Assembly: GCA_950295325.1 (NCBI GenBank)
Contig: OX485806.1
Location: forward strand, 51,765,169 to 51,829,168
Direction: 5' to 3'
Length of the DNA stretch: 64,000 nt
From: Polytrichum commune
Lineage: Eukaryota > Streptophyta > Polytrichopsida > Polytrichales > Polytrichaceae
Below, one piece after another: positions 2,063 to 57,000 of the stretch. Position numbers and translations under genes: made by a program. Position 1 is the stretch's first letter. The number at the start of each line of letters is the position of its first letter. The notes beneath the pieces are model-generated. The model made no database searches, had not been told where the DNA came from, and saw only the letters and a list, made by a program, of their open reading frames with translations.

Positions 2063-2069
2063 GACAACA

Positions 2070-4990: not shown

Positions 4991-5011
4991 AGCAGTATAA
5001 ACCCATTGAGC

Positions 5012-6842: not shown

Positions 6843-8946
6843 CTAACTGACCACCAAAATGTCGGTATCATTCACCATACGCACGACACCGGGTCGAATG
6901 TTGCGGCGCTCGCGAGCGGGTCTAGCAGCTACATCAGACAGATAAGCTGCTCCCGCGGATTGTGGTGAGTCATAAGACATGGTCGGCCCCCTGTCATCTG
7001 AGGTGTGTGCGTCAAAAGACGCAATGGTCTTTGCGGCAAGCCTCGCTCGTCGTTTGGCCACTTCATCGGGGTCTTCAGAAGCAGGGATGTCCGTGGTGGC
7101 TTGGGCACGGTCAGAGAAGGTCAGGATGCCTTCCCTTCCAAAATCCTATCCGCTAAGTGGAAAACCTTAGCAGGTTGGAACTCTGCCGACGACCATTCCA
7201 TCGCCGTGAACAAAGGAGTGTGCAACACTTTGGATGCCAAAGAGTGCACCATGCCAGTCGCCGGATTCGAAGCGTCCAAGCTCGAATGACGACCACTTAT
7301 AGATTGGACCGCATCCGCTAATCCAAAAGACAATGGCAGACGAGCCTGGCTAATCTGATCCACGGGACCATTGCCTCGAGCTCGTAAGCTATCCACAGAC
7401 TCCCCTGTGGTCGAGGGCGTGGCTCGTGACACAGATTGAGCCCGTGTCACCGTTGCGGAACTCACCATTTCTCCCGAGGCTCCGAACTTATAATAATCCG
7501 GAGTGGAAGAACTAGCCTTAGCGGCGGAGGAGGATGGTGAGTCCAAGATTTGGCTAGATGACGCCAAACTTTTGAGCCTCTCCTCTAATGCTCTAATTTT
7601 TGCCTCCAACGTCTTCTCCCGACCGGAAAAAAAACGTTTATCTGGATGGAGAGCGAAGTAGTTCTCCACCGTGTGATTGTTCCACCCACAATGGGAACAT
7701 GTCAATTGCTTGGGTAAATGTTTACCCGCCCCCTTCGTCGAATCCTTCGCGGGAATAAATGGTTTCCGCTTCGGATTACCTATAGTCTAGGCTTGCCTTT
7801 GCTTCGAAGGACAATCCTTCTTAGCATGGCTCGCCTGCCCACAAGACCAACAATGCAAGAGTCCACCTCCGCCTCCGCCAATCCTGCAATCGCGACCGGA
7901 GCCTTCCGGGATTTGCTAAAATCCACTAGCAAGGATACCAAATCAGTGGCATCGTGCTGACACAATGCACGATCACACTGCTCCACAATGGCGAATGCCT
8001 CTGCGAGTGTCGTCCGACCACCAAAGTCCATGATGATCCTGGGCAACACCAAATCAAAGAGGCGTTTATCAATCTTTGACAAAAACACCTTCACAACTTG
8101 ACTTTTTGTAAACACACCTCCAGATTCTCTGGCAAACCTCGCCAACTTCATATACATGGTACGAGGTGTATCGTCTATCTCCCATCTAAGATTTTGTATC
8201 CGCTACATCTGGTCCCGACGGAAACCTCCGTACTCATCATGTAGATGCAGCTCAAATGCCTGCAACGGCTCAAAAACTGTCGGAGCCCCCAAAGAGGCTA
8301 AAGCCACCTGGGTAACTAGGGCATAACGGGAGAGTAGAAGAATGGGGCTCGACGTACTCGCCGCAACGGGAGCAAAACTTTTATCCTTGGATTCACCAGA
8401 AGAAGCTCCCTCCACATCCACCACATATACTCCCTCCGGCACCTCCGACTTAATCTCAGGGACAACTATAAAACTGGAAGTTGTGCCTTCCTTCAATGCG
8501 GATACCAACTCAGCCCGAGTCTCCTAGTACCGCTCCACCTAGCGCACCTCCATCCAATGACCCTCGGTCCACTACTCATAAGTCTGGAGAGCCTCGTGCT
8601 CCAAATGTTGAGGCAATAGCTCGAACATATACTAGTCATTGAAACTGGTATTGTGTTGACGATTTTCCCTCATCCATGTCCTAAACTAAATTTTCCAATC
8701 TTGCAGGGAAATTGTTCCCGCTCGACCAGAAAATTGGTCCCTGATGCCGCCTCGCGTCTCCTCCTCCATATCGTCAAAGGATCCCATCCAAAGGACGTGA
8801 GACCGAGTGGCAGTCCCCAACGCCGAAGTAGGCTGAAAAACCTCGTCGGGTGCTACCACTGGTTCAACGTCCAAGAGGTTCGAGGATCGACCTTCCGATG
8901 ATGCCGACGACGGAGAACGATAATGTTGGCTCCGAGTTGTAACTAT
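6843..8946 (-). pseudogene. gypsy copy 1: Gag with CCHC zinc knuckle
   Basis: The start codon expected at 8946-8944 is ATA instead of ATG. Downstream fragments include a capsid-like region (SRKAPVAIAGLAEAEVD, ARFARESGGVFTKSQ) and a CCHC-type knuckle, CSHCGWNNHTVENYF, at about 7700. In the knuckle the last Cys has become Tyr. A low-complexity linker rich in Ser and Ala follows. CAG has become TAG near 8207. Gag packages the element RNA into particles. Confidence 0.8.
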
Positions 8947-8999
8947 AAACCCGCAATGGGTTTGATCACTGGGGCCAATAACCTAAACTAATGTAGTGT

Positions 9000-10290
9000 C
9001 AAGGTAAAGGGTCAAAAGGTGAAAAACAACATGCACCTGCAAACACCACTAAACTTATGGTCTGCTGGTCATCAATCCAGCCTCACCATAAGGGAATACA
9101 AGCACCGCCCACTTGGTGTATACACAAGGGTCCCGTTGGTCATTACTCCGACCTTACCCCCACAATATCCTATCACAATCTAAAATAACACAAAAATGGG
9201 GCAGTGTTGGAATACTCCAGCACTACAGCCCGCCACAAGGGAAGGTACCAAAATAAAATACAAGGAACAATGCAATAACAGCACTGGATCCTCTTCTCCA
9301 AAACAACACTAAAGCATAAATTAAAAGCAACCGCAATCAACTGGCACCCGTCTGCGGTTGGTGGTCAAAATGAAAAGCCCCTGTTGCTTAGGAAATGGAA
9401 ATGCCACCTATGCACATCTCTCATTTCTCCACTACTACTTAATAATCTTTGCTTACAACAATGTCGGGAATATGTGTTGACAAACACAATTCGACCTTAA
9501 TAATGATTTATGTTAGGCCGAACGAACATTCCACATGCCACCCAATTTCCAATGTATTGTATCACTACATATTGTTATGTCATGTACACCACCATGTATA
9601 CGGCACCGTATACTACTATGTATAATGCATTGGATTGTATATTGTACTGTATTATACTATATACCACGTTATACTATATACTGCAATGTATTATACTATA
9701 TGGTACTATATTGTATATTGTACAATATAATATATGTTATATTATATCATATATTGTAATATACTATATATTGTATTGTATATTTTTCGTACATACTATG
9801 TATTGTATGTATGTATTATATCATACATCCAATCATAATCATGGTCATACATACACGGTCACTAAGGGTGATCACATGCACGGTCATATCCTTATTAACT
9901 AAAGTCAAATATGCAAAAGTCCACTCTTTCTCTCCGGATTCTCACCTTCTATCAACGCTTAGAATATACAAGTAATAAAAGTCGGAAAACAAAGCTCCAA
10001 AAACTCCATGAAATTGAACAAACTCCGGAAAATAATCTTAAGCTCCACGTGCACCAACTTAATTGTCAAGCTCCAAGTGGGTTTTTCTATTGCACTTCAA
10101 TATAATTCAAAATGATGTGTAAACTTCACAAGCAAACATTTTTTTTCTTGTTGCTCCACAAATCCGCGGTGCTCTCGCTCCGGAACTTTATAATTTTGTC
10201 ACTTCTTGTCTTTACGCCCCTCTTGCGCATTACATCTTAAGAGTGAAGAAGAAAACATCAAAATAAAACACATTCTTGCCAAGTGATAAG
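9000..10290 (-). other. gypsy copy 1: leader between LTR and Gag
   Basis: The part next to Gag (about 9000-9540) matches copy 2 and includes the words GTCGAATTGTGTTTGTCAAC and ATGAGAGATGTGCATAGGT. The middle (9560-9830) is a TATA-rich quasi-repeat (variants of TATACTATATTGTA) absent from copies 2 and 3. The remainder up to the LTR also diverges. I could not locate a convincing tRNA primer-binding site. Confidence 0.6.
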
Positions 10291-10619
10291 TAAAAGAGTC
10301 AAACATTCATAAGAACTTTAAATCTCTCTTCAAATGCACACAATAAGTCAAACTATCTCTCACTCCACCATGAGAGAATCCAAGAGTATAAGTAGGGGAA
10401 GAAGAACTCAAGATTTATTGCAAAACCATGCAATCTTCACCTCATACAAACTCCCTTCACACACTCACTCACAAGACTTGACTTGGCAAGAATGCCAAGT
10501 CAAAGAGGAGGCTCCTCACTTAGGAGCCTTCCTCTTTACAAATAAGATTTATCCATCCAAATTTAAATGGATGAAATTCAACGGATAAGATGTAGCCGCC
10601 AACGCCGTATACCGTGATA
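10290..10619 (-). repeat. gypsy copy 1: 5' LTR, first 330 bases
   Basis: On the minus strand this matches the 5' LTR of copy 2: TATCACGGTATACGGCG, then hairpins AGGCTCCT-AAGTG-AGGAGCCT and GACTTGGCA-TTCT-TGCCAAGTC, then an AATAAATCTTGAGTTC polyadenylation-like signal. The conserved sequence continues some 200 bases beyond 10290, so the LTR/leader border is not fixed. Confidence 0.8.
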
Positions 10620-10899
10620 GCATTCAAACTACATGTTTGGTGAAATTATAAAAGTCGCCACAGATTGCGCAAATGTGGACGTGCGCTCATTTGAACAAAT
10701 ATGTTGATGGCAAGATGCATGGTATGCACGACTCCCGGGCATAACACACGATTGATACAAAGAAAACTTATCATTTGCAAACGGTTTCAAGAACATCCAA
10801 ATGGTATTGAATGCCAATGGTTTCAATCCTTTATCTTCATTTCTTTGCCAATGGTTCATCTGGCCCATATTTGTGTTTGTATATAATTCGGCCCCCTAG

Positions 10900-40850: not shown

Positions 40851-41299
40851 GGATCCAGATCAATCTGTCGTTGTAGTTCCGGGCATACGTTACGGATTCT
40901 CTGTGTGACCTGCCAGGCCGGGTGAAGCTGATCCGGACTGGTTGTGAGGGAATACCGGAGAGTGGCCAGATCGGGGCATCTTTCTCGGATGAGCCACATC
41001 ACCATCGGAGGTAGGAATTGAGTAGGTAGGAATTGACGAAGTAGGAGTAGGAGTAAGTCTTAGATTTAGTGGTTCATCCGGAAGGCAAGTCTCGGAAGTG
41101 AGGATTTCCAACTGCCCATCCGGAAAACGGAAAGGCCATTCCACCCGGTGGTTGATTTTCAAGCAGGGAAGGAGAGGAGCAACCATCTTACACTTCACAG
41201 GGTCCCTGGAACGATACCCGGATCATCCGGACAACCGGATTAAACACTAAAAATGCTTAACCGGATTTTTTGGTCGATCTCGTGTTCCCACAACACTCA

Positions 41300-43266
41300 C
41301 GGAGGCTCGTGAATCATAAGATGAGGTTGGCTCTTGGCCATCCAAGGCGTGTGCGTCAAAATACACAATGGCCTCCACTGTAAGCCTTGCTCGCCGTGTG
41401 GCCGGTTTTTTATGATCCTCTGTGGTAGAACGGTCAGCGGTGGCTTAAGCCACAATCAGAGAAGACAGAGGTGTTTTTCCTTCCAAAATCCTACCTGTTA
41501 GGTGAAAAACCTGAGCTGGTTAGATGTTGGATGACAACCACTTCATCGTTGTGAACAAAGGTGTGGGCAACACTTTAGATGCCAAAATGTGCACCACGTC
41601 GGTCGCCGAATTAGAGGCCTCTAAGCTCAAATTACAATTACTGACAGATGGACAACATCCACCAATCCAAAAGACAATGGTAGACGTGCCTAGCCAATCT
41701 GATCCGCGGGATCATTGTCCCGATCTTGTAAGCTATCCACAGACTACCATATGGTCGAAGGCGTGGCTCATGACACGGATCGAGCACGTGTCACCGCTGT
41801 GAAATTCATCACCTCCCCCGAAGCTCCGAACATATAATAATCCGGAGTGGAAGAACTAGCCTGAGCTCCAAAGGAAGACGGTGGGTCCAAAATTTGGCCG
41901 GATGACGCCAAATTCTTGAACCTCTCCTCCAAGGCACTAATTTTTGTCTCCAACGTCTTTTTCCCATTCGGAAGAAGGGCGTTTCTCTGGATGGAAAGCG
42001 AAGTAGTTTTTCATCGCGTAATTGTTCCGCCCACAATGAGAACACTTCAACTACTTCGGTAAATGATTACCCGCCCCCTTCGTCGAATCTTTAGCAGGAA
42101 CAACTGGTTTTTGCTTCACATTACCTATGGTTTGGGCATGCCTTTGCTTCAAAGGATAATCCTTCTTAGCGTAACCCACCTGCCCACAAGACCAACAATA
42201 CAAGGTCTTGTCCACCTCTGCCTCCGCCAACCCTACAGCCGCAACCGGAACTTTTTGGGATTTGCTAGAATCCAATAGCAAGGATACCAAATCAATGGCA
42301 TCATGTTGAGACAAGGCACAATCGCACTGCTCTACAACGGCAAAAGCCTCTGCAAGTGTCGCCCAACCACCATAATCCATGATGATCCTTGGCAGAGTTA
42401 AGTCAATGAGACGTTTGTCAATCTTTGACAAAAAATCCTTCACCAAGTGATTTTCCGTGAAAACACCTCCAGATACCTTGGCAAATCTCGCCAACCTCAT
42501 GTACATGGTATGAGGTGAGTCTTCTTTTTCCCGCCGGAAATCTTGGATCCGCTGCATTTGATCCCAACAAAAACCTCAATATTCTTCGTCCAAATTGGAG
42601 CTGGAATTCTTGCAGAGAAGCAAAATCATGTGAAACCCCTAAAGAGACTAATATCGCCTGTATAGTTTGTACACAACGGGAGAATGAAAAGATTGGGCTC
42701 AACGTACTCGAGGATGCGGTAGCATGAACATATTCTATATATTCATTAGGAAAAACTTCCTCCACGTCCACTACGAAGATGCTCTCCACTTGCTCTGTCT
42801 TCACCACATGAGGGGCTAATGAAGTTGTAGTTGCGCCCTCTTTCAATACGGAAACCAATTCTATTCAAGTCTCCCAATGAGTATCATTCCATTGCTCATA
42901 AGTTCGGAGCGCTTCGTGCTCCAAATGTTGGGGCAAAATCTTGAACGTATATCAGTCATTAAAATTAGGATTACTTTGATGTTTTTGCCGCATACACATT
43001 CTAAACACAAGGTACCAGTCTTGCAGGGAAATGATCCCTGCTCGATTGAAAAACCGGTCTCGGATTCCACCTTATGTATTCTTCTTCATATTATCAAAGG
43101 TCCCTACCTAAAGAATGTGAAACCGAGTGGCAATATTCCACGCCGAAATAAGCTAAAAATCGTCGTCGGGTGCTATCACTAGTTCAACGTTTGAGAGGTC
43201 CGATGATCGACCTTCCGATGCTCTTAGAGATGGCAAACGATAATGTTGGCTTCGACTCGTAATCAT
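41300..43266 (-). pseudogene. gypsy copy 3: Gag
   Basis: A start codon is present at 43266-43264 (MITSRSQ), but TAG codons follow within the first 70 codons. The best open part is 42557-42051, with ARFAKVSGGVFTENHL and a CCHC knuckle CWSCGQVGYAKKDYP whose last Cys is lost. CAG has become TAG just before the second knuckle (near 42050). It helps to reconstruct which codons are mutated in copies 1 and 2. It is non-functional. Confidence 0.8.
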
Positions 43267-43899
43267 AAATCCACAATGAATATGGTGACTAAAGCCAATA
43301 GCCTACACTACTTTGATGTCATTGTAAAATAAAAAAAATGGAAAATACAACTTGCACCTATAATCATCTCCAACAGTATGGTCTGCTGGTCATTATTCCA
43401 GCCTCAACATAAAGGAATATAAGCACCATCCACTTGGTGCACACATAAGGATCCCGTCGGTCATCACTCCGACCTCACCCCCACAATACCCTATCACAAA
43501 CTAGTATAATACAAAATGGGACAATGTTGACAACGTCCAGCAACACATTCCGCCACGGAGGAAAATACCACAACGAAATACGGAAAACAATGTAAATACA
43601 ACACTCGATTGTCTTCCCAAAATAACAAATAAAAAAAATTCAAATTGACCGCACCCAACCCGCACTCACCTGCAGTGGGTGGTCAAACGTGAGATACTCT
43701 TGTTGTCGTGGAAAAGAATTGGCACATAAGCACATAATTCATACCTACTACAATATAAAGACTCTTTCCTATAACAATCTTCCGGAATTTGTATTACTAA
43801 ACACAATTCGACCTTAACAATTATGACTAAACACAAGTCGAATGGTAATTTTATATGCCACACAACTCTCAATGGCAATCCCTCGATAATCCCATACAC

Positions 43900-45180
43900 A
43901 TACCCCTAAATGAAACGACATCCACAACTTGCCCCCAATAAAAAACTATATGATTGTTTAATTGTTTTTTTTCTTTTTTTTTCTCTTTTAAGCAATAGAA
44001 AATAAAAACCCCATCTTATGCCAAGTACCTCGTTCCAATCCGATGTGGTAGAAAGATAAGTTAACCGCACATTCATTGCAATCCCACGCCTTCCACGTAT
44101 TTCTAAATGCTCTCACAAACTTTCCTTGTGATACTTGCCTCTTCCGAAACCCAAATACCTTAATTTCTCATAAGGTACTTATGAATGGCGGCAACAGATT
44201 GTTCCAAATCTCCACATTTCCATTTTTTATCAATAAAAATATCCATGGTAAAGACTTCACCAAATTTGTATTGGATGCCCCTCCAATTAACACTCTTGAT
44301 TTTTATTTGCTTTGTTGTTGTTTTTTTAATTAACCCTTTTAAGTATGGGTTTAAGAAAAACAAAAAAAAATTATTTGATTTCTTTTTAAAATAAAATAAA
44401 ATAAATTTCACCCCCTCTGCAATTGTTGCCACAATTGTAGCAGGGTAAGGGGAGGCCGGGAGGAGGGGGGTGGGAGGTTAACAGGCCAGGGGGGGAAAGT
44501 CAACTGGGGGGAGGTTGACTAACCTAGGGGTAGGCTAGGATAAGGGGGAGGGGAAGGTAAAGGGGCTAGGTAGGGGGGTAAGGGTTAGGCTAGGGGTAGG
44601 CTCGGGGACTAACCTAGGTAGGGGGGGTAGGCTAAGTGAACTAGGTAGGCTAGCTGGGCTAGAGGTAGGCTAAGATAGAGTGGGAGGGGAAGGTAAAGGG
44701 GGGGTTGGAGGAAAGGAAGGAGGATGGGGAGGGGGGGAGGAGGGCAGGGGGGCAGGGGGGCCGGCCTGCCGCGGATTGATGCCGTGTACCGCCGGATGGC
44801 TGCCAACAAACCTGAAGAAACAAAAGCTCCTAGATGAACCCCTCCGCCTCTCCTCCTCCTACTTTTTTTTTTAAATGAAATTGAACTTGAATCGAAATCA
44901 ATAATGTTTTTTACAAGCTCAATGATATGAATTCAAACTTGTAAGTAAACAAATGACAAGAAATTCTGTAGATAATTCTATAATTTATCACCACAATTCA
45001 CCTTGATGTGGCATTCACAAATAAACATTTTTTTGTTGTTGTTCCGCAAATCCGTGGTGTTCTCGCTCTGACACTCCGCAACTTTGCTACTCCTTATCCT
45101 CACGCCTTCCCTTGCGTGTTATATATCAAGAATGAAGAAAAAAATAAAAATAAAAATGAAGCATTATTATCAAGTGAGAA
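43900..45180 (-). other. gypsy copy 3: leader, with a G-rich tract at 44450-44770
   Basis: Between LTR and Gag this copy carries sequence unlike the leaders of copies 1 and 2. It includes 320 bases of plus-strand G-runs (GGGGAGG, GGGGGTAGG, GGGAGGGG and similar) with obvious G-quadruplex potential. No open frame of note. Confidence 0.6.
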
Positions 45181-45510
45181 GGAAGAGAGTCAAACCCTTA
45201 TCAGAGCTCTAATTATCTCTTCAAATGCACACAATGAATTAAGCTATCTCTCACTCCACCACGGGAGAATCCAAGAATATAAGAAAATTGAAAAGAACTC
45301 AAAATTTATTGCAAAAACATGCAATCTTCACCTCACACAAGCTCTTTCCACACACTCATTCACAAGACTTGACTTGGCAAGAATGCCAAGCCAAGGAGGA
45401 GGCTCCTTACTTAGGAGCCTTCCTCTCCACATCTAAGATTCATCCATTCAAATATAAATGGATGAAGCCCAACGGATAAGGTGCGGCCGCCGACGCCGCA
45501 TACCGTGACA
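45175..45510 (-). repeat. gypsy copy 3: 5' LTR, first 335 bases
   Basis: On the minus strand it matches the LTRs of copies 1 and 2, with the AGGCTCCT-AAGTA-AGGAGCCT and CTTGGCA-TTCT-TGCCAAG hairpins and the AATAAATTTTGAGTTC signal. Similarity to copy 2 continues to about 44990. Confidence 0.85.
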
Positions 45511-45750
45511 GTTTCGATATTTGCAAACAATGAGGTATAAAATATAAGAGCAAGTCTAAACATGGTCAAAAACATAGATATGCTACATGAAATATCTATA
45601 ATATACTTACTGAATGCTATTGGATATTGCTTGGGTGCAACAGTTGTTGAATGAGTTAGGCTTCCAATCCAGCTGGACCATTTCCAATGAACTGTTTCCA
45701 TGGCGAAATGTCACTTTTACAACAGTTTGATGAAATGCAATATGCTACTG
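45511..45750 (-). pseudogene. MULE copy B, downstream fragment between two retrotransposons
   Basis: The minus-strand frame from 45750 reads AYCISSNCCKSDISPWK and ends near SNIQ, aligning with VYAITSRCKEANMSPWT and NNIQ of MULE copy A (about 23010-23160). Joined across gypsy copy 2 it continues the fragment that ends at 55634 (VFDDLYNTLPV). A GTAAGT donor-like site follows the SNIQ region. Confidence 0.7.
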
Positions 45751-46081
45751 TGTCACGGTATGCGGCGTCGACGGCCGCACCTTATCCGTTGGGTTTCATC
45801 CATCTAGATTTGGATGGATGAATCTAGATGTGGAGAGGAAGGCTCCTAAGTGAGGAGCCTCCTCCTTGGCTTGGCATTCTTGCCAAGTCAAGTCTTGTGA
45901 ATTACTGTGTGGAGAGAGCTTGTGTGAGGTGTAGATTGCATGATTTTGCAATAAATCTTGAGTTCTTCTTCCCCTAATTACACTCTTGGATTCTCCCTTG
46001 GTGGAGTAAAAGATAGCTTAACTAGTTGTGTGCATTTGAAGAGAGATTTAGAGCTATTGTGAGTGTTCTACTCTCTTCCTT
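45751..46081 (+). repeat. gypsy copy 2: 5' LTR (part shared with 3' LTR)
   Basis: It starts TGTCACGGTATGCGGCGTCG. Three inverted repeats lie close together: 45801-45830 (CATCTAGATT...AATCTAGATG), 45840-45860 (AGGCTCCT...AGGAGCCT) and 45870-45887 (CTTGGCA...TGCCAAG). An AATAAATCTTGAGTTC polyadenylation-like signal follows near 45950. Beyond 46081 (CCTTCT) the 5' copy continues with CACTTGACAAGAATGC, shared with copies 1 and 3, while the 3' copy changes to a different sequence. The true LTR end is therefore unsettled. Confidence 0.85.
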
Positions 46082-47595
46082 CTCACTTGACAAGAATGCT
46101 TCATTTTGTTATGTTTTCTTCTTCATTCTTGAGATGTATGCGCAAGGAAGGGCGTGAGGACAAGGAGTGACGAAGTTGTGAAGTTCCGGAGCGAGAACAC
46201 CGCGAATTTGCGAAGCAACATGAAGAATGTTTGCTTGTGAATGTCACTTCAAGGTGAATTGTGGTGATAAGGTGTTGCATTTTCCACGGAATTTCATGTT
46301 ATGTGGCTCACATTCAAGCTTGAATGCTTGACATTGAGCTTTGGAAGCGGATTTATGATTCTAAGTGCAAGAATTTGTGCATCAAACACAAATTTTTTGT
46401 GAAACAAGTCCAAAAAAAAAAGAAAAAAGGGAGGCAACCTGCCTTCCTCCCCTCCGCTGCTGGCCCCTAGTCTGCAACTATCCGCGTCTGTCCACAGCTA
46501 CCGGCGGCTGTCCGTGGCTGACGGCGGCAGCTGCCACCAACTCTGCCTGTGGCTGCCATCAAGACTGCTGCCTCCAGCTGCCATCAAGACTGCTACTTGC
46601 GGCTGCCAGGCCAACAAGGCTTGAGCTAAGGTTCAATTCCGGAGAGGGAGCCCGAGAAACAGCTACCACATCCAAGGAAGGTAGCAGGCTCGCAAATTAT
46701 CCAATTGTTTTTTATTTTTATTTTTATTTGTGTTTGTGTTTGTTTTAATTAATTAATGCATTAATTAATTAAAACCGGATTTTTAAAATTTAATTTAATT
46801 AAAAAAAATTATTTAAAATTTAAAATTTCCTTACAACATCTAATCCTTCCTCTTCTCCCTAAGAGGTTAATTTCTTAGGCTCATTAATCAAGGATACAAG
46901 GAAAAAAACCTAAGCTCTTATGAAATATTAAACATACTTGGGATTTCTTTTTAAGTGTTATGTTGTATGAAATTTCTAAGAGGAATGTCATTGGAAATTG
47001 GGTGGCATGTGGAATTCCGTTCGGCCTAAAATAAATTATTATTAGGGTCGAATTGTGTTTGTCAACACATATTCCTGGCATTTTTCTGAGGAGGGATTCT
47101 TAGGTTGTAGTGGGAAGATGAGAGATGTGCATAGGTAGCATTTCTTTTTCTTAAGTAACAGGGGCTTTTCATTGTTGACCACCAACTGCAGGCGGGTGCC
47201 AGTTGGTTGCGGTCGGTTTCAATTTCTGCTTGAATGTTGTTTTGGGGAAGAGGATCCAGTGTTGTTCTTGCATTGTTCCTTGTATTTTGTTTTGGTACCT
47301 TCCCCTGTGGCGGGCTGTAGTGTTGGAGTGTTCTAGTGTTGCCCCATTTTGTGTAGTCCTAGATTGTGATAGGGTACTGTGGAGGTGAGGTCGGATTAAT
47401 GACCGACGGGACCTTTGTTTGTGCATCAAGTGGGCGGTGCTTGTTTTCACTTGTGGTGAGGCTGGGTTAATGACCAACAGACCATAAGTTTTGGTGGTGG
47501 TTGCAGGTGCAGGTTGCCTTTGACCCTTTTTCTCTTTGTACCTGGATACTAATTCATTTGGGTTGTTGATTCGGTGACCATCCCATTGTGGGTTT
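46082..47595 (+). other. gypsy copy 2: rest of LTR/leader before Gag
   Basis: 46082-46290 is conserved with copies 1 and 3. 46430-46640 is a GC-rich stretch of GGCTGCCATCAAGACTGCT-like repeats unique to this copy. 46940-47595 again matches copy 1, with short inverted words such as GTCGGATTAATGACCGAC and TGGTGAGGCTGGGTTAATGA. No protein and no sure primer-binding site. Confidence 0.55.
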
Positions 47596-48831
47596 ATGGT
47601 TACAACTCGTACTCAACACTATCGTTCTCCGTCCCCAGGAGCATCGGAAGGTCATCCCTCGGACCTCTCGGACGTTGAACCAGTGGTAGCACCCAACGAG
47701 GCTTTTCAGCCTACTTCGGCGTAAGGGACTATCACTCGGTCTCACGTCCTGTGCGTGGGAACCTTTGACGATATGGAGGAGGAGACTAGGGGAGGGATAC
47801 GGGACCGGTTTTCCGGTCAAGCAGGGACCATTTCTCTGCAAGACTGGAAAATCCGGTTTCGTACGTGGATGCGAGAGAAACGCCAACGCAATACCAATTT
47901 TAACGATTGGTATGCGTTTGACCTTCTGCCTCAGCATTTGGAGCATGAAGCTCTCCAAACTTATGAGCAGTGGACGGAGGCTCATTGGATGGAGCTGCGC
48001 CAGGTGGAGCGGTACTGGGAGACTCGGGTTGAGTTGGTATCCGCATTGAAGGAAGGCGCAGCTTCCAGTTTTATGGCCGTCTCTGAGGTTAAATCGGAGG
48101 TGCTGGAGGGAGTATTTGTGGTGGACGTGGAGGGAGCTTCTCCTGGTGAACCCAAGGATAAGGGTTCTGTTCCCGTTGTGGCGAGTACGTCGAGCCCCAT
48201 TCTTCCACTCTCCCGTTATGCCCAGGCTACCCAGGCGGCTTTAGCCTCTTTGGGGGCTCCGCCAATTTTTGAGCCGTTGCGGGCATTTGAGCTACATCTA
48301 CATGAGGAGTACGGAGGTTTCCGTCGGGACCAGATGCAGCGGATATAAGATTTTAGACGGGAGAACGACGATACACCTCGTACCATGTATACGAGGTTGG
48401 CGAGGTTTGCAAGAGAATCTGGAGGTGTGTTTGCGGAAAGTCAATTGGTGAAGGTGTTTTTGTCCAAGATTGACAAACGCCTCCTTGACTTGGCGTTGCC
48501 CAGGATCATCATGGATTATGGTGGTCGGGCGACACTCGCAGAGGCATTCGCCATGGTAGAGCAATGTGATCGTGCATTGTGTCAGCACGATGCCACTGAT
48601 TTGGTGTCCTTGCTAGTGGATTCTAGCAAGTCCCGGAAGGCTCCAATCGCGTCTGCGGGATTGGCGGAGGCCGAGGTAGACAAGACCATGTATTGTTGGT
48701 CTCTTGGGCAAGCTGGCCACGCTAAGAATAATTGTCCTTCGAAGCAAAGGCAAGCCCAGATCGTCATTACTCCGAAGTGGAAATCATTTGTTCCCGCTAA
48801 GGGCTCGGCGAAGGGGACGGCGGGTAATTAG
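47596..48831 (+). pseudogene. gypsy copy 2: Gag (capsid and first zinc knuckle)
   Basis: Starts MVTTRTQHYRSPSPGASEG at 47596. TAA at about 47724 (copy 1 has TTG) and TAA at 48346 (CAA in copies 1 and 3) break it. The capsid part (47761-48348) has FRTWMREKRQRNTNFNDWY and HLEHEALQTYEQWTEAHW. The next segment (48385-48831) has ARFARESGGVF and a knuckle, CWSLGQAGHAKNNC, whose second Cys has become Leu. Gag would build the virus-like particle around element RNA. The low number of changes elsewhere suggests it was functional not long ago. Confidence 0.85.
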
Positions 48832-48840
48832 TTATCCAAT

Positions 48841-50178
48841 CAGTTGAAGTGTTCCCATTGTGGGCGGAACAATCACGCGGTAGAGAACTGCTTTGCTCTC
48901 CATCCTGAGAAACGTCCTTCTTCCGACCGGGAGAAGACGTTGGAGGCGAAGATTGGAGCCATGGAGGAGAGGTTCAAAAGCTTGGCGTCATCCGGCCAAA
49001 TCTTGGCCTCACCGTCTTCCTCCGGAGCTCAGGCTAGTTCTTCCACTCCGGATTACTATATGTTCGGAGCCTCGGGCGAGGTGGTGAGTTCCGCGGCCGT
49101 GTCACAATCCATACCTTCGACCACAAATGAATATGTGGCAAGCTCGCGAGCTCGGGACAATGCGTCCGCGGACCAAATTGGTCAGGCACGACTACCATTA
49201 TCTTTTGGATTGGCCGATGCCGTCCAATCTGTCAGTGGTCGTCATCCGAACGATGTGGTTTCACATTCAGCAATCGATGTGGCGCACACATTGGCATCCA
49301 AGATGTTGCATTCACCTTTGTTCATGGCCATGGAGTGGTCATCGCCAGAGTTCCAACCTGCTAAGGTTTTTCACTTAGCAGGTAGGATTTTCGAAGGGAA
49401 GGCATCCTTACCTTCTTTGACTGTGGCTCAAGCCACTACGGACATCCCTGCTTCTGAAGATATTGAGGATGTAGCCAAACGGCAAGCGAGACTTGCGGCA
49501 GAGACCATTGCGTCTTTTGACGCATACGCCTTAGATGACAAGGCACCAACCACGTTTTATGACTCACCAGTATCCGCGGGTGCAGCCTATCTGTCTGATG
49601 TCGCTGCTAGACCTGTCCGCGAGCGCCGCGACATTCGACCCGGCGTTGTGCGTATGGTGAATGATACCGGAATTTTGGTGGTCAGTCGCACTGGGAGCAA
49701 TACTACTCGGGTTGCTCCCCGTTGTGTGATGATGGATTCAGGGGCACAACCAGTTATGATCGGCAAGAGGTTTGCCCAAGAGTTGAGGTTGACGGCCGAG
49801 GATTTGGCTCCCTGTCCATTCACCATTGTCACATCCATTGGTCACGTGGAGCGGGCCATGGGTTATACTCGAGAGCCATTACAGCTTAGCTTCCGAGTGA
49901 AGCCTGGAGATTCACCCGCACCTCTTCTTCTTAGGTGTGCGGTGATGGATGCGACCAACTATGACATTTTAGTTGGTCAGCAAGCACTTTACCCTCTTGG
50001 TTTTGGTTTGGACAACTGGACTGAGGAGGCGTGGATCCGACCAGGTTGGTCGGCTGGGGATGGCCGCAGGGAACTTATTCCCGTGGTTTTCGTGGCGGCC
50101 GCGACCATAGCACCATTATCTATGGTTTTTGGATGTGGTGCTATGGTGGACACATTGCCTTATGGTTCCGAATTGTAG
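48841..50178 (+). pseudogene. gypsy copy 2: second zinc knuckle and aspartic protease
   Basis: Open for 444 residues. It begins at an intact CCHC knuckle (CSHCGRNNHAVENCF), followed by a Ser/Ala-rich linker of about 270 residues. A retropepsin domain then appears with MMDSGAQPVMIGKRF (Asp codon at 49735-49737) and YDILVGQQALYPLGF as the flap-distal part. The protease would process the polyprotein. The frame ends with TAG at 50176 in place of a Leu codon (TTG in copy 1), just before the methyltransferase; otherwise it would read straight on. Confidence 0.88.
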
Positions 50179-51653
50179 GAGGAGTCATTGGCATTCATGG
50201 GGAGTACAGACGATCAACGGGATATGGCACCTAAGGGTGCGTTGGTGCGCCATCCCAAGGATCCCCTTCCTCCTTGGCGTGATTCCGCCGAGCTATTTCG
50301 GAGGTGCGAGGATATTGTTCACTCTGTCACTCCTAGGACACCGATCATACCGGGTGTCCTCTCGGCATTGGCACATCCCCTTTTATGGCAGCCGCCAGAC
50401 GCGGGGATTACTTTGGTGGAATTGTTTGGGGGCATCAGCACAGGCTTAGCGGCCGTATTGGAGGCTGGCCTCACGGTCAGACGGTATGTCTATGTGGACA
50501 ATTCTCCAGTGTCCACCCGTGTGGCTAGTCACCATCTTCACCAGTTGATGGTATTGTACCCCCAGCAGTTACACCCAAATGCCATTCATGGGTGTTTTTC
50601 ACGTCTCCCTCGTGATGTTACACTCATCAGTGAGGCCGACTTACGACACTTGGGCCCGGTGGATATGGTGATTGCGGGATGGCCATGCCAAGGCCATTCA
50701 CGTGCTGGAGCAGGCCGAGGTTTAGAGGATCCCAGGTCTAGCTTTTTCTGGGACCTCATCCGGCTTATGCAGTGGTGGTTTACCCACCAACCTTCCCCTC
50801 CAGGGTATATCTTCGAGAATGTACCTTTGTTGGGAGACTCTCGGGACAAGGTGTTGGAAGGCGGTCATTATGTTCGTCAACACCTTGGAGATCCCATTTT
50901 TGTGGATGCTACGAGCATTGGTTCTTATGCCCACCGGCCCCAGTGGATTTAGACCAACCTCGCACCGTCATCTACTTTAGCTGCAGCATTGTCTCCACCT
51001 TTGGATGAGAAGGTGGATGACATTTTGGATCCAAACCGGACCTCTTTGCCGGTTGTTCGAGATGATTTACCCCCGTTGGCATTGGTCAACAAAATGGGGC
51101 ACCACGGCGGGCCTTTCCCACATTTATGACGTTTCCACAGTCATTCGCTTTCCGCGATAGGGGGCCGGGTATGGTGTGGGATGTTCGTACCAAAACCCAC
51201 ACCGAACCATTGGCTGACGAACGGTAACGTGCCATGGGATTCCGCACTGGCACCACCGCAGCTCCCGGCCTTTCTGAGGGCCAACGACGCTTCGTATTGG
51301 GCCAAGCTATGGATCTTCATACTATGGTGTGGACTGTTGCTTTATGCCTTTCATTGCAAAGGCATCGTGGTGACCAGTGGTTGTCTCTGGGGGCAGAGGA
51401 CTCTGGTCAGGCGGCACAGCGGTCCACACCCATAGAAGAGGGAATTCACGCCATGGTTGGAGAAGCCGAACGAATTTTTCAATTCGAGCAGCATGTGATG
51501 GAGGAGCTTCGAGCTCAGCATTTTTACACTGCTTTGGTTTCTTCGCCTCCGGTGGTGGCTTCATCATCACATATTGGTGGTGATGAAGAAATGTCAGACT
51601 CTAGTACTAGCACCGAGACTGGGGGCATGATTAATGCCCCCTCCTCTCATTAG
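50179..51653 (+). pseudogene. gypsy copy 2: C5 cytosine DNA methyltransferase domain
   Basis: The same domain as in copy 1. Motif I reads ELFGGISTGL (Gly to Ser against copy 1), motif IV GWPCQGHSRAG with the catalytic Cys at 50686-50688, motif VI IFENV. At the motif VIII region QWI is followed by TAG where copy 1 has TGG. One G is missing in a G-run near 51090, and TAA follows in the ERERAMGF segment (51226). The rest to motif X (QRRFVLGQAMDLHTMVW, about 51285) is readable. The domain would methylate cytosine in DNA using S-adenosylmethionine; a plausible substrate is the element's own cDNA or its target chromatin. After motif X about 100 residues of acidic linker lead to reverse transcriptase. 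Confidence 0.92.
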
Positions 51654-51665
51654 CAATTAGAGTCT

Positions 51666-52544
51666 GGGCCAGCATCAGGTGGTTCTCCTTTGGTGGAGAG
51701 GGAGACTACAGAGTTTGATGATTGGCCACTTGAATTAGGCCCTCGTCTCACTGGTGCTGAGGCACGGAAGGTACGAGCATTTATTCGCTCGTACCGTAGA
51801 TGTTTTGCTTTTAGCCTTCAGGATCTTGAAGGTTATAAAGGAAAACCCATCCACATTCAGTTGGAGGACGACCATCCCATTTTTCGGAGACCTTACAGGC
51901 TCAGTGTTTCCGAGCGGATTGGCGTTCAGGCTCGTTGCCGAGAGCTCTTGGCAGCAGGGCTAATCGAACTTTCCAACGGGGAGTATGCTTGTGCTACGGT
52001 TATGCCATCGAAGAAGGATATCTTTGGCAATTGGACGAAGAAGCGGATGTGTGGGGATTACCGTCCAGTTAATCGGAAGACCAAGTCGGATCGATATCCC
52101 ATGCCAAACCCGGAGGAGTTGTTCGATGCCTTCGGATTTGCTCGAGTCTTTAGCACGTTGGACTTGAGATCCGGCTATCACCAACTCCCATTACTTGTGG
52201 GAGACCGAGTGAAAACCGCATTCTGGGGAGTTGATCAAGATGGGAAGGATCAACTTTACCATTGGAAGTTTCTTCCATTTGGCCTAAAGAATGCACCCGC
52301 TGAGTTTCAGCGGGTGATGGATCAGGTTCTCTTTGGCTTGCCTTTTGCTCGGTGTTACATAGACGATGTGATCATCTTCAACACAACACCACAAGAGCAT
52401 GTGAGGCATCTGCAAGCTGTTTTTGAGCGGTTGCAGCGGTGGGGATTGCGCTTGCACCACGGCAAGTGCAAGTTTTTCCATGACCGGCTGGCATATCTGG
52501 GGCATATGATTGTTCCAGGAGGTCTTGGGGGTACAACAAGCTAA
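51666..52544 (+). pseudogene. gypsy copy 2: reverse transcriptase
   Basis: Open from 51666 to 52544. Palm and finger motifs are FRRPYRLSV, CGDYRPVNRKTKSD, STLDLRSGYHQLPLL, FLPFGLKNAPAEFQRVMD and the catalytic CYIDDVIIF (YIDD at 52356-52367), then KCKFFHDRLAYLGH. All are standard for Ty3/gypsy. A one-base insertion in a G-run at about 52530 shifts the frame to that of the RNase H segment. Synthesises element cDNA. Confidence 0.95.
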
Positions 52545-53560
52545 GGTGGACGCCTTACAGAAGATTCCGGCACCGGTTGATGTGCCGAGACTTCGTGCTT
52601 TCTTGGGCTTGGCGAATTATTATCGGCGATTCGTCAAGAACTTTAGCTTGATCGCCAAGCCTCTCACCATTCTCACGAGCAAGGACCAACCGTGGACTTG
52701 GGGTCGTGAACAACAACAGGCGTTTGAGACATTGAAGCAGAAACTAAGTATGGCTCCAGTGCTTCGACGTCCAGATGTCTCCAGATCTTTCCAGTTGCAT
52801 ACAGATTGGAGTTCATTGGGTTTGGGAGCAGTTCTCACTCAGAAGGATGATTTTAGTCGGGAGTATGTTGTTGCTTACGCTTCGCGAAGCAATAACACGG
52901 CGGAGGTTAATTATTCATCCTATGAGGGAGAAACATTGGTGGCGGTATGGGCTATTGCCCATTTTCGGCCGTATCTTTATGGTCAGCACTTTACTTTAGT
53001 GACGGACCATCAGCCGTTACGGTGGCTCATGGAGTCGGATAAGCTTACTGGCAAGCTTGTCAGGTGGGCTTTATTGCTCCAGGAGTATGACTTTGAGGTG
53101 GTACACCGTGCTGGGATTACCAACATGGATGCAGATGGACTCTCACGCAATCCAAGTCCTTCGGATGAGGACTTGACCGGGGCCAGATGGCATGGAGATT
53201 GTGATCGAGAGGCGGTTCCAGGTTCGCACGCGGCTGCCTACCTTACTTTATTTTCTGGTGCATCTGTTGAGATTCCGATACAGGGTCCGGATGATGAGAC
53301 TGATCGGCCTCAAGCTATTGTGGATATATGGGAGGATCCTCCCGTATTGCATAAGCTTCAACAGGGTACCTTTCCTTTGTTTATTTCGGCAATGGAAAGG
53401 GATAGGATTGGACATCAAATAACAAGGTTCCGTTGGGAGAACAGTTTGTTATTTCGATTGTGGCCGGATGGGACAAGGCGTATTGTTCCTAGGCCGGATC
53501 AGAGGGCCTCTTTGGTGCGACAAGTGCACGAAGAACTTGGCCATTTTGGCATACGCAGGA
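52525..53560 (+). pseudogene. gypsy copy 2: RT thumb, RNase H and connection
   Basis: The frame starting near 52510 continues the polymerase (RLRAFLGLANYYRRFVKNF). It then gives RNase H: FQLHTDWSSLGLGAVL (first Asp), the central YSSYEGETLVAVWAI with the conserved Glu, TLVTDHQPLRWL (Asp) and NMDADGLSRNP (last Asp). A linker of about 100 residues leads to the integrase. This part is open without stops and every RNase H acidic residue appears present. Confidence 0.93.
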
Positions 53561-54420
53561 CACATTCGATGTTGCGTGGCCAATATTGGTGGACTGGCAT
53601 GTATCAGCAGGTGGCTGCTTATGTCGGGAGGTGTGAAGTTTGTGACCGGGTCAGGTCTAGCTTTAACACCTTGTCACCTCAGTTACAGCCCTTACCTATT
53701 ATGGGATTGGGCTACCGTTGGTCGCTAGACTTTGCGGGACCGTTGGTTGTCACGCCACGTGGAGCAAAGTACGTGTTGGTGATGGTGGAGCATTTTAGCA
53801 AGTGGATTGAGCTTGTTGCTTTACCCCAAAACTCTGCAGAGTTGGCCGCAGCCGCCTTTTTGGATTGTGTGTTGGCACGTTTTGGAGCACCGGCTGAGGT
53901 GTTGACGGACCAAGGGAGGGAGTTCCTTGGTGTTTTTGAGGAGTTGTGCACTAAGGCGCTCATAGATCACCGCACCACCTCTCGGGATCATCCGGAGGCA
54001 GATGGCTTGGCTGAACGGGTTGTTCGGACAACCAAGCGTGGCTTGAGGAAGTATGGATTACTTCGGGGAAGCCACCGGGATTGGGACCTTATGTTGCCTT
54101 GGAATGCTATGGGCTATTGATTTAGTAGGCAGGCCTCTTTGGCATCCTACAGCCCGTATCAATTATTGTATGGACGTGAGCCTATACTCCCGAGCTCTAT
54201 TCGGGAAAAGTTAACTCCTGTTGTGGACTTGGATGACCCAAACATTTGGGCAGAGTGTTTGCAGGAGCGGGCTCAATTCTTCCAGAGGGCCATGCCTATG
54301 GCCATGGAGAATTTGTCCATTGGTCAGCACCGTGACACATTGCGTTATGCACGCATTCGTAGTGGTGCTTACCGACCTCAGTTACGGAAATTTCGGCAAG
54401 GGGATTATGTTTATCTCTAA
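53500..54420 (+). pseudogene. gypsy copy 2: integrase (HHCC and DDE core)
   Basis: The zinc-binding HHCC region is VHEELGHFGIRRTHS followed by CEVC. The catalytic core has Asp in WSLDFAGPL (53728-53730), Asp in VLTDQGREF (53908-53910) and Glu in HPEADGLAERVV (54013-54015). TGA at 54118 replaces CGA (copy 1 has CGA). After it the frame continues with YSPYQLLYGREPILPSS and RQGDYVYL, the start of the C-terminal domain, then TAA at 54418, most easily explained as CAA to TAA. Joins element cDNA to the host chromosome. Confidence 0.93.
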
Positions 54421-54801
54421 CGTGAGGCGCCTACGACATTGGATGTCAGGGCGGGGCGCACTATCTTTTGGGTGAAGGAGGTGTTGCCGAGTGGTTTGTT
54501 GTTGTTGGAAGGCAAGGATGGTAGGCAATGTCGCGAGCATTCTAAAAACTGTGCCCCATGTCATCTACCTATTGAGGGTACAATTCATCCTGAACTGGCC
54601 GTCGTGCCAGAGGGTCTTCCATGTTTTGTGTGTGGAGAGAAGAAAGGAGCGGCTACTATGCTCTTGTGTGATCAATGTCAACGCGGTTGGCACATGGCAT
54701 GCTTGAGGCCACCCTTGACTTCTCTACCATCTGGACAGTGGAGTTGTCCTCGCTATCGAGGATCTTCGGTACTTGGTGCTTCCACCAATCGTATTCAATG
54801 A
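54421..54801 (+). pseudogene. gypsy copy 2: integrase C-terminal barrel plus PHD finger
   Basis: In frame with the integrase beyond its TAA: REAPTTLDVRAGRTIFWVKE and LPSGLLLLEGKDGRQC form an SH3-like C-terminal domain. Then follows a PHD finger at 54622-54756: CFVC, MLLCDQC, GWHMAC and LPSGQWSCPRY. The spacing is C4HC3 with the typical LxxPPLxxLPxGxWxCPxC end. The last zinc Cys is Tyr here (TAT at 54754-54756), one change from TGT. PHD fingers bind histone H3 tails in many chromatin proteins. In chromoviruses a chromodomain usually stands at this place, so the finger may direct integration by chromatin mark; this is inference. The frame ends at 54801. Copy 1 is truncated before this point, so the finger is seen once. 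Confidence 0.88.
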
Positions 54802-55085
54802 TCCTGTGTGGTTTTCATCATCTTGTGCCTGCCCAGATGGAAAATGAGGAGTTATGGCTTAGAGACGCAATCAACATGAGGCGGTGGATTTAATTCTTTG
54901 GGATCTGATGGCCAAACATCAGAGGCGATTAAGGATGGGGCTCACATTGCACCCAGCCTACAGTTCCTTGGAATAACGTTTACCACACTAGTTAGTTGCA
55001 GAGCAATCTTTCATTATCCATGCCCTTTAGATTGGCATTGGTCCTAGCTGCTTGGCGGGACTCCATAGTCAGCTGAGTGGGGGCA
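54802..55085 (+). other. gypsy copy 2: 3' untranslated region with polypurine tract
   Basis: No reading frame of note. It ends with GAGTGGGGGCA (55074-55085), which looks like a polypurine tract for plus-strand priming and is directly followed by TG. Confidence 0.6.
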
Positions 55086-55191
55086 TGTCGAGGTGTGTTG
55101 TTTATGTGTGACTTTGCTATGTTTTAGTGTTGTTTGTTAGTGGTGGTTGGTACTCGAGCTGCAGTGACACACGATTGTTATTTACACGACA
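55086..55191 (+). repeat. 106-bp direct repeat X1, TGTCG...CGACA
   Basis: It begins TGTCGAGGTGTGTTG right after the polypurine tract and ends TTTACACGACA. It is repeated almost exactly at 55528-55633. It has the form of a tiny LTR (TG...CA with five-base inverted ends). Confidence 0.8.
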
Positions 55192-55193
55192 GC

Positions 55194-55527
55194 TGTCACG
55201 GTATGCGGCGTCGACGGCCGCACCTTATCCGTTGGATTTCATCCATCTAGATTTGGATGGATGAATCTAGATGTGGAGAGGAAGGCTCCTAAGTGAGGAG
55301 CCTTCTCCTTGGCTTGGCATTCTTGCCAAGTCAAGTCTTGTGAGTTACTGTGTGGAGAGAGCTTGTGTGAGGTGTAGATTGCATGATTTTGCAATAAATC
55401 TTGAGTTCTTCTTCCCCTACTTACACTCTTGGATTCTCCCTTGGTAGAGTGAAAGATAGCTTGATTAGTTGTGTGCATTTGAAGAGAGATTTAGAGCTAT
55501 TGTGAGTGTTCTACTCTTTTCCTTCTA
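55194..55527 (+). repeat. gypsy copy 2: 3' LTR, first 334 bases
   Basis: It starts TGTCACGG and matches 45751-46081 with about nine differences, including the hairpins and the AATAAATCTTGAGTTC signal. After CCTTCTA it switches to repeat X2 in place of the CACTTGACAAG seen in all three 5' copies. Confidence 0.85.
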
Positions 55528-55633
55528 TGTCGAGGTGTGTTGTTTATGTGTGACTTTGCTATGTTTTAGTGTTATTTGTTAGTGGTGGTTGGTACTCGAG
55601 CTACAGTGACACACGATCGTTATTTACACGACA
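55528..55633 (+). repeat. 106-bp direct repeat X2, forms the element's 3' end
   Basis: The second copy of X1, ending CGACA directly before the target duplication ACTG and the MULE sequence. Confidence 0.8.
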
Positions 55634-57000
55634 ACTGGAAGAGTATTGTACAAATCATCAAACACCTTGAGAATGTACCAAAGAAACCACAACAACAAAA
55701 CGCAGAGATATTAAAGAGGTATATATCATAAAAAATACAAAAAATGCATTGTAAAGCATGAAATTCACTATGAAGTACATTGTTTTCATTGGTACCAAAA
55801 GTTACATTGGTGGAAATTAATTTCATGTGTTTGTGCTTCAACATCATGTCCTTTGCCATTTGGTTGAATGCCCTATTGTAAAGAGCATGTTCTTACTAGT
55901 AACACCACTTGTAATGGAGTTATTTTGATCTTGAATGAGAATTTTTTTGTCATTGTTTTGAAATGCCCATATTCAATCACTTTTGGCATTGTTAGCATGC
56001 CTTTTGTATGTTTTCTTTGGAAGTTTGCCATATGTATTATTCACATTTTCCTCAAGGATGATTTTTTGAAGTCTTCATGTTGTGTCCATTATCTTTTTAA
56101 CATGACACTTGTACTTAATCATGATTTGGCTACAACTTAAACCCAATTGAAATTGTTCTTGAACCCACTAGATCATCTCCAATGAGAGTTGACTAACAAA
56201 GCCGTCCTTTGTTGCCTTCCATCCCACATCCATGTACAATTTAGCCATCCTTGTTGATATAGTTAGCTTCATAAGGGAGATTTGAGCAACATTTGGAAAC
56301 AAGTAAAGGCGTTTTACTAGAAAGCCTCGGAGACAACCCTTTTTGTGAGTATCCCCTTTCTTTGTTGAGAATATGTGAGGTCATGCATGACCTCGCTAAT
56401 TTAGGAATGAATTTACCTTTCTTGTTGAGTTTTTTCTTTGGATGTAGCAAAGCTAGAGTTATGGGTAACAAAGATTGTTTGTGTTCCTAAGGCCAAATTG
56501 ACAATGGTATCTACAATAAGGTAAAGAAATATTAAACGCGGCGGCATTAATGAATTTGGAGCATGAAAATGATAACAAGAACAAAAGTTATAGGAAAAGA
56601 ATATGTTGAGGAAATAAATTACCTAGCACATTCTTTAAAGCTACACCACCTAGGTGATTTTAATGAATTTGGGCCAATTTTTTTAATGTGTTGTTTGACA
56701 AAATGATATTGAATGTTTCCATGGTCCTATTTTCCATGAATAAAATATTGCATATGGGCCCATTTGATGTGTGCTACATCCATGTTTCTATCCAATAGTT
56801 TTGACGATGCTTTGAAACCCATTGCAATGCAAAGTGGTGGAATGGTCTTGTAAGAGGTTCTTGGAGTTGTTGAATGCATGTTACATTTTTTGAAGATTGT
56901 CAGGTTCAAGAGTAGCACCTTGCCAATCAAATGTCACATATTTGCATTCATATATGCATGGTACTCCCATGCAACTAGCAATAGCCAATGACACTAGTTA
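55634..57000 (-). pseudogene. MULE copy B, upstream fragment
   Basis: From right to left on the minus strand. KKKLNKKGKFIPK lies near 56440 (as KRKLDTKGKFIPN in copy A). HTKG and YGKLPKKTYKRH-like segments and FTIGHSTKW lie near 55890 (FTLGIQTQW in A). MMLKHKHMKLISTNVTFGTN lies near 55830 and VFDDLYNTLPV at 55640. It is the N-terminal part of the MULE transposase, split by gypsy copy 2 and continued at 45750. Both MULE copies share an intron-like donor after a VV-L-M context near 56640. Frames are broken. Confidence 0.65.

Follow-up and report, generated by a model that had tools for sequence, protein, structure and literature searches.

A Ty3/Gypsy-type retrotransposon family with a DNMT3-like methyltransferase and an integrase-linked PHD finger, represented in the genome of Polytrichum commune

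A stretch of 64,000 nucleotides from Polytrichum commune (assembly GCA_950295325.1, contig OX485806.1, positions 51,765,169 to 51,829,168 of the forward strand), hereafter called the window, carries three copies of one retroelement family, A on the plus strand and B and C on the minus strand. Copy A (45751-55633) is a decayed member of a Ty3/Gypsy-type retrotransposon family and encodes, in a single orientation, Gag, protease, a C5-cytosine DNA methyltransferase (DNMT), reverse transcriptase (RT), RNase H, integrase and a PHD finger. The presence of both DNMT and PHD finger is a feature of the family and not an accident of one copy, since an open relative, hereafter called L030, and a number of homologous open reading frames (ORFs) keep both domains. 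In the model proposed for this family, to which a probability of roughly 0.55 is assigned, the DNMT, located on the Gag side of the element, would methylate new complementary DNA (cDNA), and the PHD finger would steer the integrase to silent chromatin. The features of the element in window coordinates were as follows.

45747..45750, no strand: target-site duplication ACTG, left (matches 55634-55637)
45751..46083, plus: terminal repeat A1, starting with TGTCACGG (97.3 % to 55194-55526)
45874..45888, plus: segment of A that pairs with the putative primer-binding site (14/15)
46085..46098, plus: putative self-complementary primer-binding site, directly after A1 (complementarity to A)
47596..48954, plus: Gag with zinc knuckles, interrupted (tblastn with pieces of L030 ORF1; ORFs)
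49699..50088, plus: aspartic protease (73 % to the L030 protease; Pfam below cut-off)
50371..51362, plus: DNMT3-like C5-cytosine methyltransferase domain (Pfam PF00145, 2e-11; tblastn in two frames)
51651..51653, plus: UAG followed by CAA TTA, putative programmed readthrough site (shared context, RNA fold)
51966..52566, plus: reverse transcriptase core (Pfam RVT_1, 1e-29)
52774..53088, plus: RNase H (Pfam PF17917, 7.8e-35)
53494..53994, plus: integrase, H2C2 zinc domain and rve core (Pfam, 1.2e-17 and 1.8e-15)
54616..54768, plus: PHD finger at the integrase C-terminus (Pfam, 1.5e-11; 82 % to the L030 PHD finger)
55075..55084, plus: polypurine tract (PPT), adjoining B1 (similar tract in L030)
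55085..55193, plus: repeat B1, with B1/A2 junction TTTACACGACAGCTGTCACGG (junction identical in L030)
55194..55526, plus: repeat A2 (97.3 % to A1)
55527..55633, plus: repeat B2, ending with ACACGACA (repeat comparison)
55634..55637, no strand: target-site duplication ACTG, right (matches 45747-45750)
2065..10621, minus: copy B (5' end 10621-10125, body 9554-2065, DNMT ORF 6403-5012)
41294..45510, minus: copy C (5' end 45510-44915, Gag part 43881-41294)

The domains and their order in one direction, as read from the bare sequence in the initial annotation, were recovered by Pfam searches of the copy A ORFs and by tblastn with L030. The protease match was weak (E 0.019). The order protease, RT, RNase H and DDE integrase is that of Ty3/Gypsy elements. 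No phage-integrase (tyrosine recombinase) match was found in the eight ORFs scanned with Pfam, which contained rve and H2C2 instead, and no chromodomain was detected by Pfam in the C-terminal ORF of copy A or in six relatives, all of which had a PHD finger in its place. The frame from Gag to PHD finger is not open in copy A, having several stops (in Gag, between protease and DNMT as well as within the latter, and near the end of the integrase) and two frameshifts. The DNMT is interrupted by a premature stop and a frameshift, and the RT has a frameshift close to its end. The complete set of C5-methyltransferase motifs ascribed to copy A is thus present, but complete only across the premature stop and the frameshift, and the uninterrupted frame that was to be sought in other copies is lacking in copy A. 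In L030 each of the two ORFs is open. The last zinc-ligand Cys of the PHD finger is Tyr in copy A and Cys in L030.

L030, a 9285-bp contig with identical 127-base ends, was found by a single scan of bacterial and archaeal genomes (species representatives). The scan gave five loci, the other four being distant matches in Streptomyces (28-35 %). L030 is filed under a metagenome-assembled genome (MAG) of the Synechococcales (cyanobacteria), but because of its content it is taken to be a stray eukaryotic element. Its first ORF encodes Gag, zinc knuckles, protease and DNMT, and after a single UAG the second encodes RT, RNase H, integrase and PHD finger (1043 amino acids). A protein search with residues 780-1043 of the second ORF gave 358 matches, 120 of which were listed and are considered here. 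According to BLAST with the L030 modules, the PHD finger was present in 119 of the 120, and DNMT, integrase and PHD finger occurred in the same ORF in 40 (41 by hidden Markov model, HMM), 20 of which also contained RT. The remaining listed homologues had integrase and PHD finger only (54), RT, integrase and PHD finger (25) or integrase only (1). One of the 40, P0041, is an apparent misjoined gene model. In a Pfam check of six homologues the DNMT and the order were confirmed in four; the volvocalean P0077 and P0094 showed the PHD finger and the integrase zinc domain and no DNMT by Pfam. The proposal that one element family encodes both domains in the order given is supported. Loss of the DNMT or the PHD finger from full-length copies elsewhere, which the initial annotation had named as evidence against the pairing, was tested in part: L030 and 40 of the 120 listed ORFs retain both.

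Named species among the listed matches were Marchantia polymorpha, Calypogeia fissa, Closterium, Haematococcus lacustris, Volvox reticuliferus and Tetrabaena socialis. The majority of the ORFs with both domains come from contigs without an assigned host, not from named species, and in Marchantia the DNMT and PHD matches fall in separate gene models, P0041 excepted. The Volvox and Tetrabaena proteins had DNMT HMM matches of 162 and 254 bits, yet lacked the catalytic motif words searched for. Neither BLAST nor HMM revealed a DNMT in the Haematococcus protein or a PHD finger in the long Closterium protein P0185. One family protein, P0004, is labelled as from a candidate bacterium, which is likely contamination, like L030 in the cyanobacterial MAG. 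In viral contigs, matches to the DNMT profile were limited to distant methyltransferases (29 loci, 25-48 % identity in the best segment), and the integrase-PHD profile had no relative there.

The DNMT of the element is DNMT3-like, as judged by sequence, profile and predicted fold. Motifs I, IV, VI, VIII, IX and X follow in unrearranged order in motif counts over the homologue rows, and the predicted model aligns with residues 630-908 of DNMT3A. Among the 50 rows listed by VIA-align, DNMT3 occupied rows 1-34, followed by 4dkj (a CpG-specific bacterial enzyme), M.HhaI, M.HaeIII and DNMT1; DRM, CMT and DNMT2 did not appear among these 50 rows, which excludes none of them. No PWWP or ADD match was found in the element ORFs scanned. 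Catalytic and zinc-binding residues were kept in nearly all rows counted, and both domains are under purifying selection, with a ratio of nonsynonymous to synonymous substitution (dN/dS) of 0.36 for the DNMT and a strongly skewed ratio of the corresponding proportions of differences (pN/pS) for the PHD finger. Between copy A and L030, pS is near saturation in the Gag-protease-DNMT half and the Pol half alike.

In the window branch the DNMT follows the protease and precedes the RT. Among the 20 HMM-scored listed ORFs with DNMT, RT, integrase and PHD finger, it preceded the RT in 3 (pre-RT) and lay between RT and integrase in 17 (pre-integrase), after RNase H in the two of these that were scanned with Pfam. 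Where neither RT nor protease was visible, a gap of <300 residues to the integrase was scored as pre-integrase, and for the window and L030 the pre-RT label of the integrase rows was set manually. In motif IV, WEC often stands in place of WPC, with the Cys retained; Glu was found in 19 of 31 pre-integrase rows and also in P0032, P0034 and P0185. Trees were built by quick searches from rows with model coverage of at least 60 % (DNMT) or 80 % (integrase); they have long branches, and the Shimodaira-Hasegawa-like approximate likelihood ratio test (SH-aLRT) is their sole support. In the DNMT tree (91 rows), the 33 pre-integrase DNMTs made up one side of a branch with SH-aLRT 99. The midpoint split of the integrase tree (108 rows, support 98) gave two sets, one of 39 rows that contained all five pre-RT rows and one of 69 that contained all 37 pre-integrase rows. 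Rows without a visible DNMT (66 of 108, many of them cut ORFs) are spread over both sets, so that neither position label is a clade, and because of them the pre-integrase label requires 21 changes on this tree; the pre-RT label (5 rows, 5 changes) showed no more clustering there than shuffled labels did. Use of this tree was confined to the split between the 5 and the 37. DNMT position and integrase descent agree, as would be expected equally of one move or of two captures.

An in-frame UAG separates DNMT and RT at 51651 in copy A, at 4873 (minus strand) in copy B and at 3489 in L030, that is, in all three DNA copies that reach the site, the frame being the same on both sides. It is followed by CAA TTA in copy A, CAG TTA in copy B and CAA TCA in L030 (TAG CAR YYA), a context that has been kept despite the near-saturation of synonymous sites between L030 and the window. 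CAR YYA after UAG is the tobamovirus readthrough context. The predicted RNA fold of the 131-base UAG region was better than those of 200 out of 200 shuffles in copy A, copy B and L030 (z -3.58, -3.75 and -4.69, respectively). The ends of the Gag-side proteins P0156-P0171 are clustered, as expected from a shared stop, 15 of the 16 lying 85-144 residues past the DNMT and that of P0166 at 66. The UAG is a putative programmed readthrough site with a tobamovirus-like context. Since it separates DNMT from Pol, the DNMT would belong to the Gag-side product, and in the window branch DNMT and PHD finger would probably differ in the amounts produced and be for the most part separate proteins. Their location on opposite sides of the UAG makes a single protein acting as both writer and reader at the target a less favoured possibility; in other branches the two domains occur in one ORF.

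The position of the PHD finger at the integrase end, where chromoviruses carry their chromodomain, had been proposed initially and agrees with the domain order. In the predicted structure it sits behind an SH3-like integrase end, both parts having a block pLDDT (predicted local distance difference test) of 79-94. The predicted template modelling score (pTM) of the integrase-PHD model was 0.38, and therefore only the separate SH3-like and PHD parts were used. The C4HC3 zinc-ligand pattern was intact in 118 of the 120 listed homologues. Of 43 aligned rows, at least 90 % have Gly as the residue two before the His, where PHD fingers reading H3K4me3 have a cage Trp. The best solved relatives are fingers known mostly for unmethylated H3K4. 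For both reasons, a reader of unmethylated H3K4 is the better guess for the element PHD finger.

The recognisable ends with a target duplication noted initially were found, with the ACTG duplication (chance of any given 4-bp match, 1 in 256) and repeats of 96-97 % identity, but the repeats are split and are not plain long terminal repeats (LTRs). Between the duplications, copy A has the layout A1-coding-PPT-B1-A2-B2, with repeat A at 45751 and 55194 (97.3 % over 333) and repeat B at 55085 and 55527 (96.4 % over 111), i.e. A-coding-B-A-B in the wording used for DIRS repeats (PMC5890265). Copies B and C also start at the start of A, with no B in front, one of the first bases of copy B being different. 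Plain LTRs at both ends are ruled out by the layout of copy A and the A-first 5' ends of B and C. L030 repeats the order PPT-B-A, and 21 bases across its B/A junction are identical to copy A; the 3' side of the split repeats is known from one window copy, the 3' ends of B and C being missing. The B/A junction holds the palindrome GACAGCTGTC. An exact match to the junction in another contig, L035, was taken as chance, the contig having no coding kin (best E 0.69). The split direct repeats are arranged as in DIRS elements, and the tyrosine recombinase of DIRS elements had no match in the eight ORFs scanned; A-coding-B-A-B is combined with a DDE integrase in one element.

The stretch right after A pairs with a hairpin arm inside A, located 123 bases in for copy A, 126 for copy B and 179 for L030. 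Pairing was 14/15, 14/15 and 15/16, respectively, which was reached by none of 200 base shuffles in each case; the pairing motif was not found in copy C, which has no score. Base changes that distinguish one arm of copy B from that of L030 have their counterparts in the other arm. This points to self-primed reverse transcription; copy A has one unmatched change.

The body of copy B is 86.4 % identical to copy A (7532 columns) and its DNMT lies in an open frame of 463 amino acids. Its match stops at residue 940 of the 1043-residue L030 ORF2, before the PHD finger, and there was no PHD match at copy B. The Gag part of copy C is 73 % identical to that of copy A, and beyond this part and the 5' end the remainder of copy C was not found in the window. 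Copies A and C are arranged head to head (45177-45510 and 45751-46083) with 240 bases between their A repeats, forming a large inverted repeat. Elsewhere in the window there is a DDE_Tnp_4 transposase (15650-16720, minus, 3e-21), presumably of the PIF/Harbinger type, beside an ORF (14419-14967, plus) with a weak Myb/SANT-like match below the cut-off. A tandem array at 40057-40846 consists of 284-base units (2.8 copies, 88 % matches). Two related ORFs on opposite strands (34879-35703, minus, and 36923-37438, plus) have the common stretch PSREPHW.DID and no Pfam match, and perhaps represent another repeat family. Neither an Rfam match at gathering score nor a transfer RNA (tRNA) was found in the window.

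Several known systems resemble the family in part. Chromoviruses, which are Ty3/Gypsy elements with a chromodomain at the integrase C-terminus, likewise have a chromatin-reader-like domain there, but the window family has a PHD finger for the chromodomain, an added DNMT and split repeats. In self-primed retrotransposons of the Tf1 type the primer-binding site is complementary to the element's own 5' region, as here, although the complementary segment of the window element lies 123 bases into repeat A. Animal DNMT3A and DNMT3B share the catalytic fold and the unrearranged motif order and were the best match in sequence and structure; unlike these, the element ORFs scanned were without a PWWP or ADD match, and the element PHD finger is in another protein product. 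DNMT-bearing elements have been described in Symbiodinium and Klebsormidium (de Mendoza et al. 2018, PMC5890265), and DNMT3 members in retrotransposons have been reported for streptophytes and dinoflagellates (PMC12344493, 2025). The likeness to the charophyte element mentioned in the initial annotation is supported by its published description: KnitGypsy-Dnmt3 of Klebsormidium nitens has a Gypsy-type Pol with a DNMT3-type enzyme encoded with it, repeats arranged as in DIRS elements and purifying selection on the DNMT, but its DNMT is described in the Pol ORF, whereas that of the window family lies on the Gag side of the UAG (PMC5890265). No Klebsormidium sequence was found among the matches that bear a species name. 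SymbioDIRS-Dnmt3 and SymbioLINE-Dnmt of Symbiodinium are also retrotransposons with a DNMT, with two domain orders within SymbioDIRS, but integrate by tyrosine recombinase or as LINEs and have no PHD finger in the main text (PMC5890265). That main text, figures and supplements aside, contains no mention of PHD, and the passages of PMC6338049 on accessory domains of retrotransposon proteins name the chromodomain and no PHD finger. No title or beginning of an abstract in the literature searched described DNMT and PHD finger in one retrotransposon. DNMT-bearing Gypsy elements are thus already known, and the PHD finger alongside the DNMT appears, as far as main texts go, to be new. New here are also the putative readthrough UAG between DNMT and Pol, the two DNMT positions, which agree with the integrase tree, and the candidate self-complementary priming site.

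In the proposed model, the DNMT3-like enzyme and the integrase-linked PHD finger are standing parts of a family with named relatives in liverworts and green algae. Element RNA would be translated to Gag-protease-DNMT up to a leaky UAG, which a minority of ribosomes would pass, adding RT, RNase H, integrase and PHD finger. Being made on the Gag side, the DNMT may be packed with Gag in the particle, where, or soon afterwards in the nucleus, it could methylate the new cDNA, and the new copy would then be already marked on arrival. The PHD finger, via residues of the type binding unmethylated H3K4, would guide the integrase to silent chromatin, as the chromoviral chromodomain does. Several observations weigh against parts of this model. 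P0051, P0057 and P0138 have DNMT and RT in one ORF with no stop between them, and the stop is therefore not universal; the idea of readthrough is based on three DNA copies, of which two are close relatives. The DNMT evolves faster than RT and integrase (pN 0.23 versus 0.08, A to L030), and this, with dN/dS between A and B of up to 0.53 in the protease and 0.67 in part of Gag, indicates weaker constraint in the Gag half, although recombination may be the cause of the faster change there. CpG depletion as a trace of self-methylation was not found, observed/expected CpG being 0.77 in coding copy A, higher than the 0.58 and 0.41 of two window stretches of differing GC content. The KnitGypsy DNMT domain was inactive in yeast, a result called inconclusive by its authors (PMC5890265); it and the lack of CpG depletion count against strong self-methylation.

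The lack of depletion in the element itself would also fit an enzyme acting on host chromatin, methylating host DNA or rival elements or keeping the copy in tolerated silent regions. DNMT3 enzymes act on chromatin, and the Gag-side position could give a large supply of DNMT, but fusion to Gag and protease would hold it in particles, and this explanation is considered rather unlikely. An RNA substrate (element RNA or tRNA) would agree with an enzyme on the Gag side, where genomic RNA is packed, and with DNMT2, a C5 methyltransferase of this fold that acts on RNA; as DNMT3 ranked first by both sequence profile and fold, it is regarded as improbable. That DNMT and PHD finger are passengers contributing nothing to the cycle might be thought from their decay in copy A and the faster evolution of the DNMT, but is hardly credible for domains with the selection values given above and with catalytic and zinc residues nearly always kept. 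That DNMT and PHD finger came together at this locus by separate insertions or through an artefact of assembly, conceivable in a repeat-rich window with three broken copies, can be dismissed, since L030 has the same order and 20 listed ORFs join DNMT, RT, integrase and PHD finger, 3 of them in the window order.

Beyond the proposed model, a wider picture is possible, though doubtful as a whole: a streptophyte-chlorophyte lineage with a matched writer and reader, which would self-methylate its cDNA, land where H3K4 is unmethylated and hide in silencing instead of escaping it. One branch would have moved the writer from before RT to before the integrase, another would dose it by tobamovirus-like readthrough, and DDE integration, DIRS-like repeats and self-priming would be combined. 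If this picture is correct, green-lineage mobile elements would have kept, perhaps for a very long time, more than a captured enzyme, namely both halves of an epigenetic system. Handles for testing why a parasite methylates DNA at all would be provided by the position of the DNMT, by the UAG and by the PHD finger.

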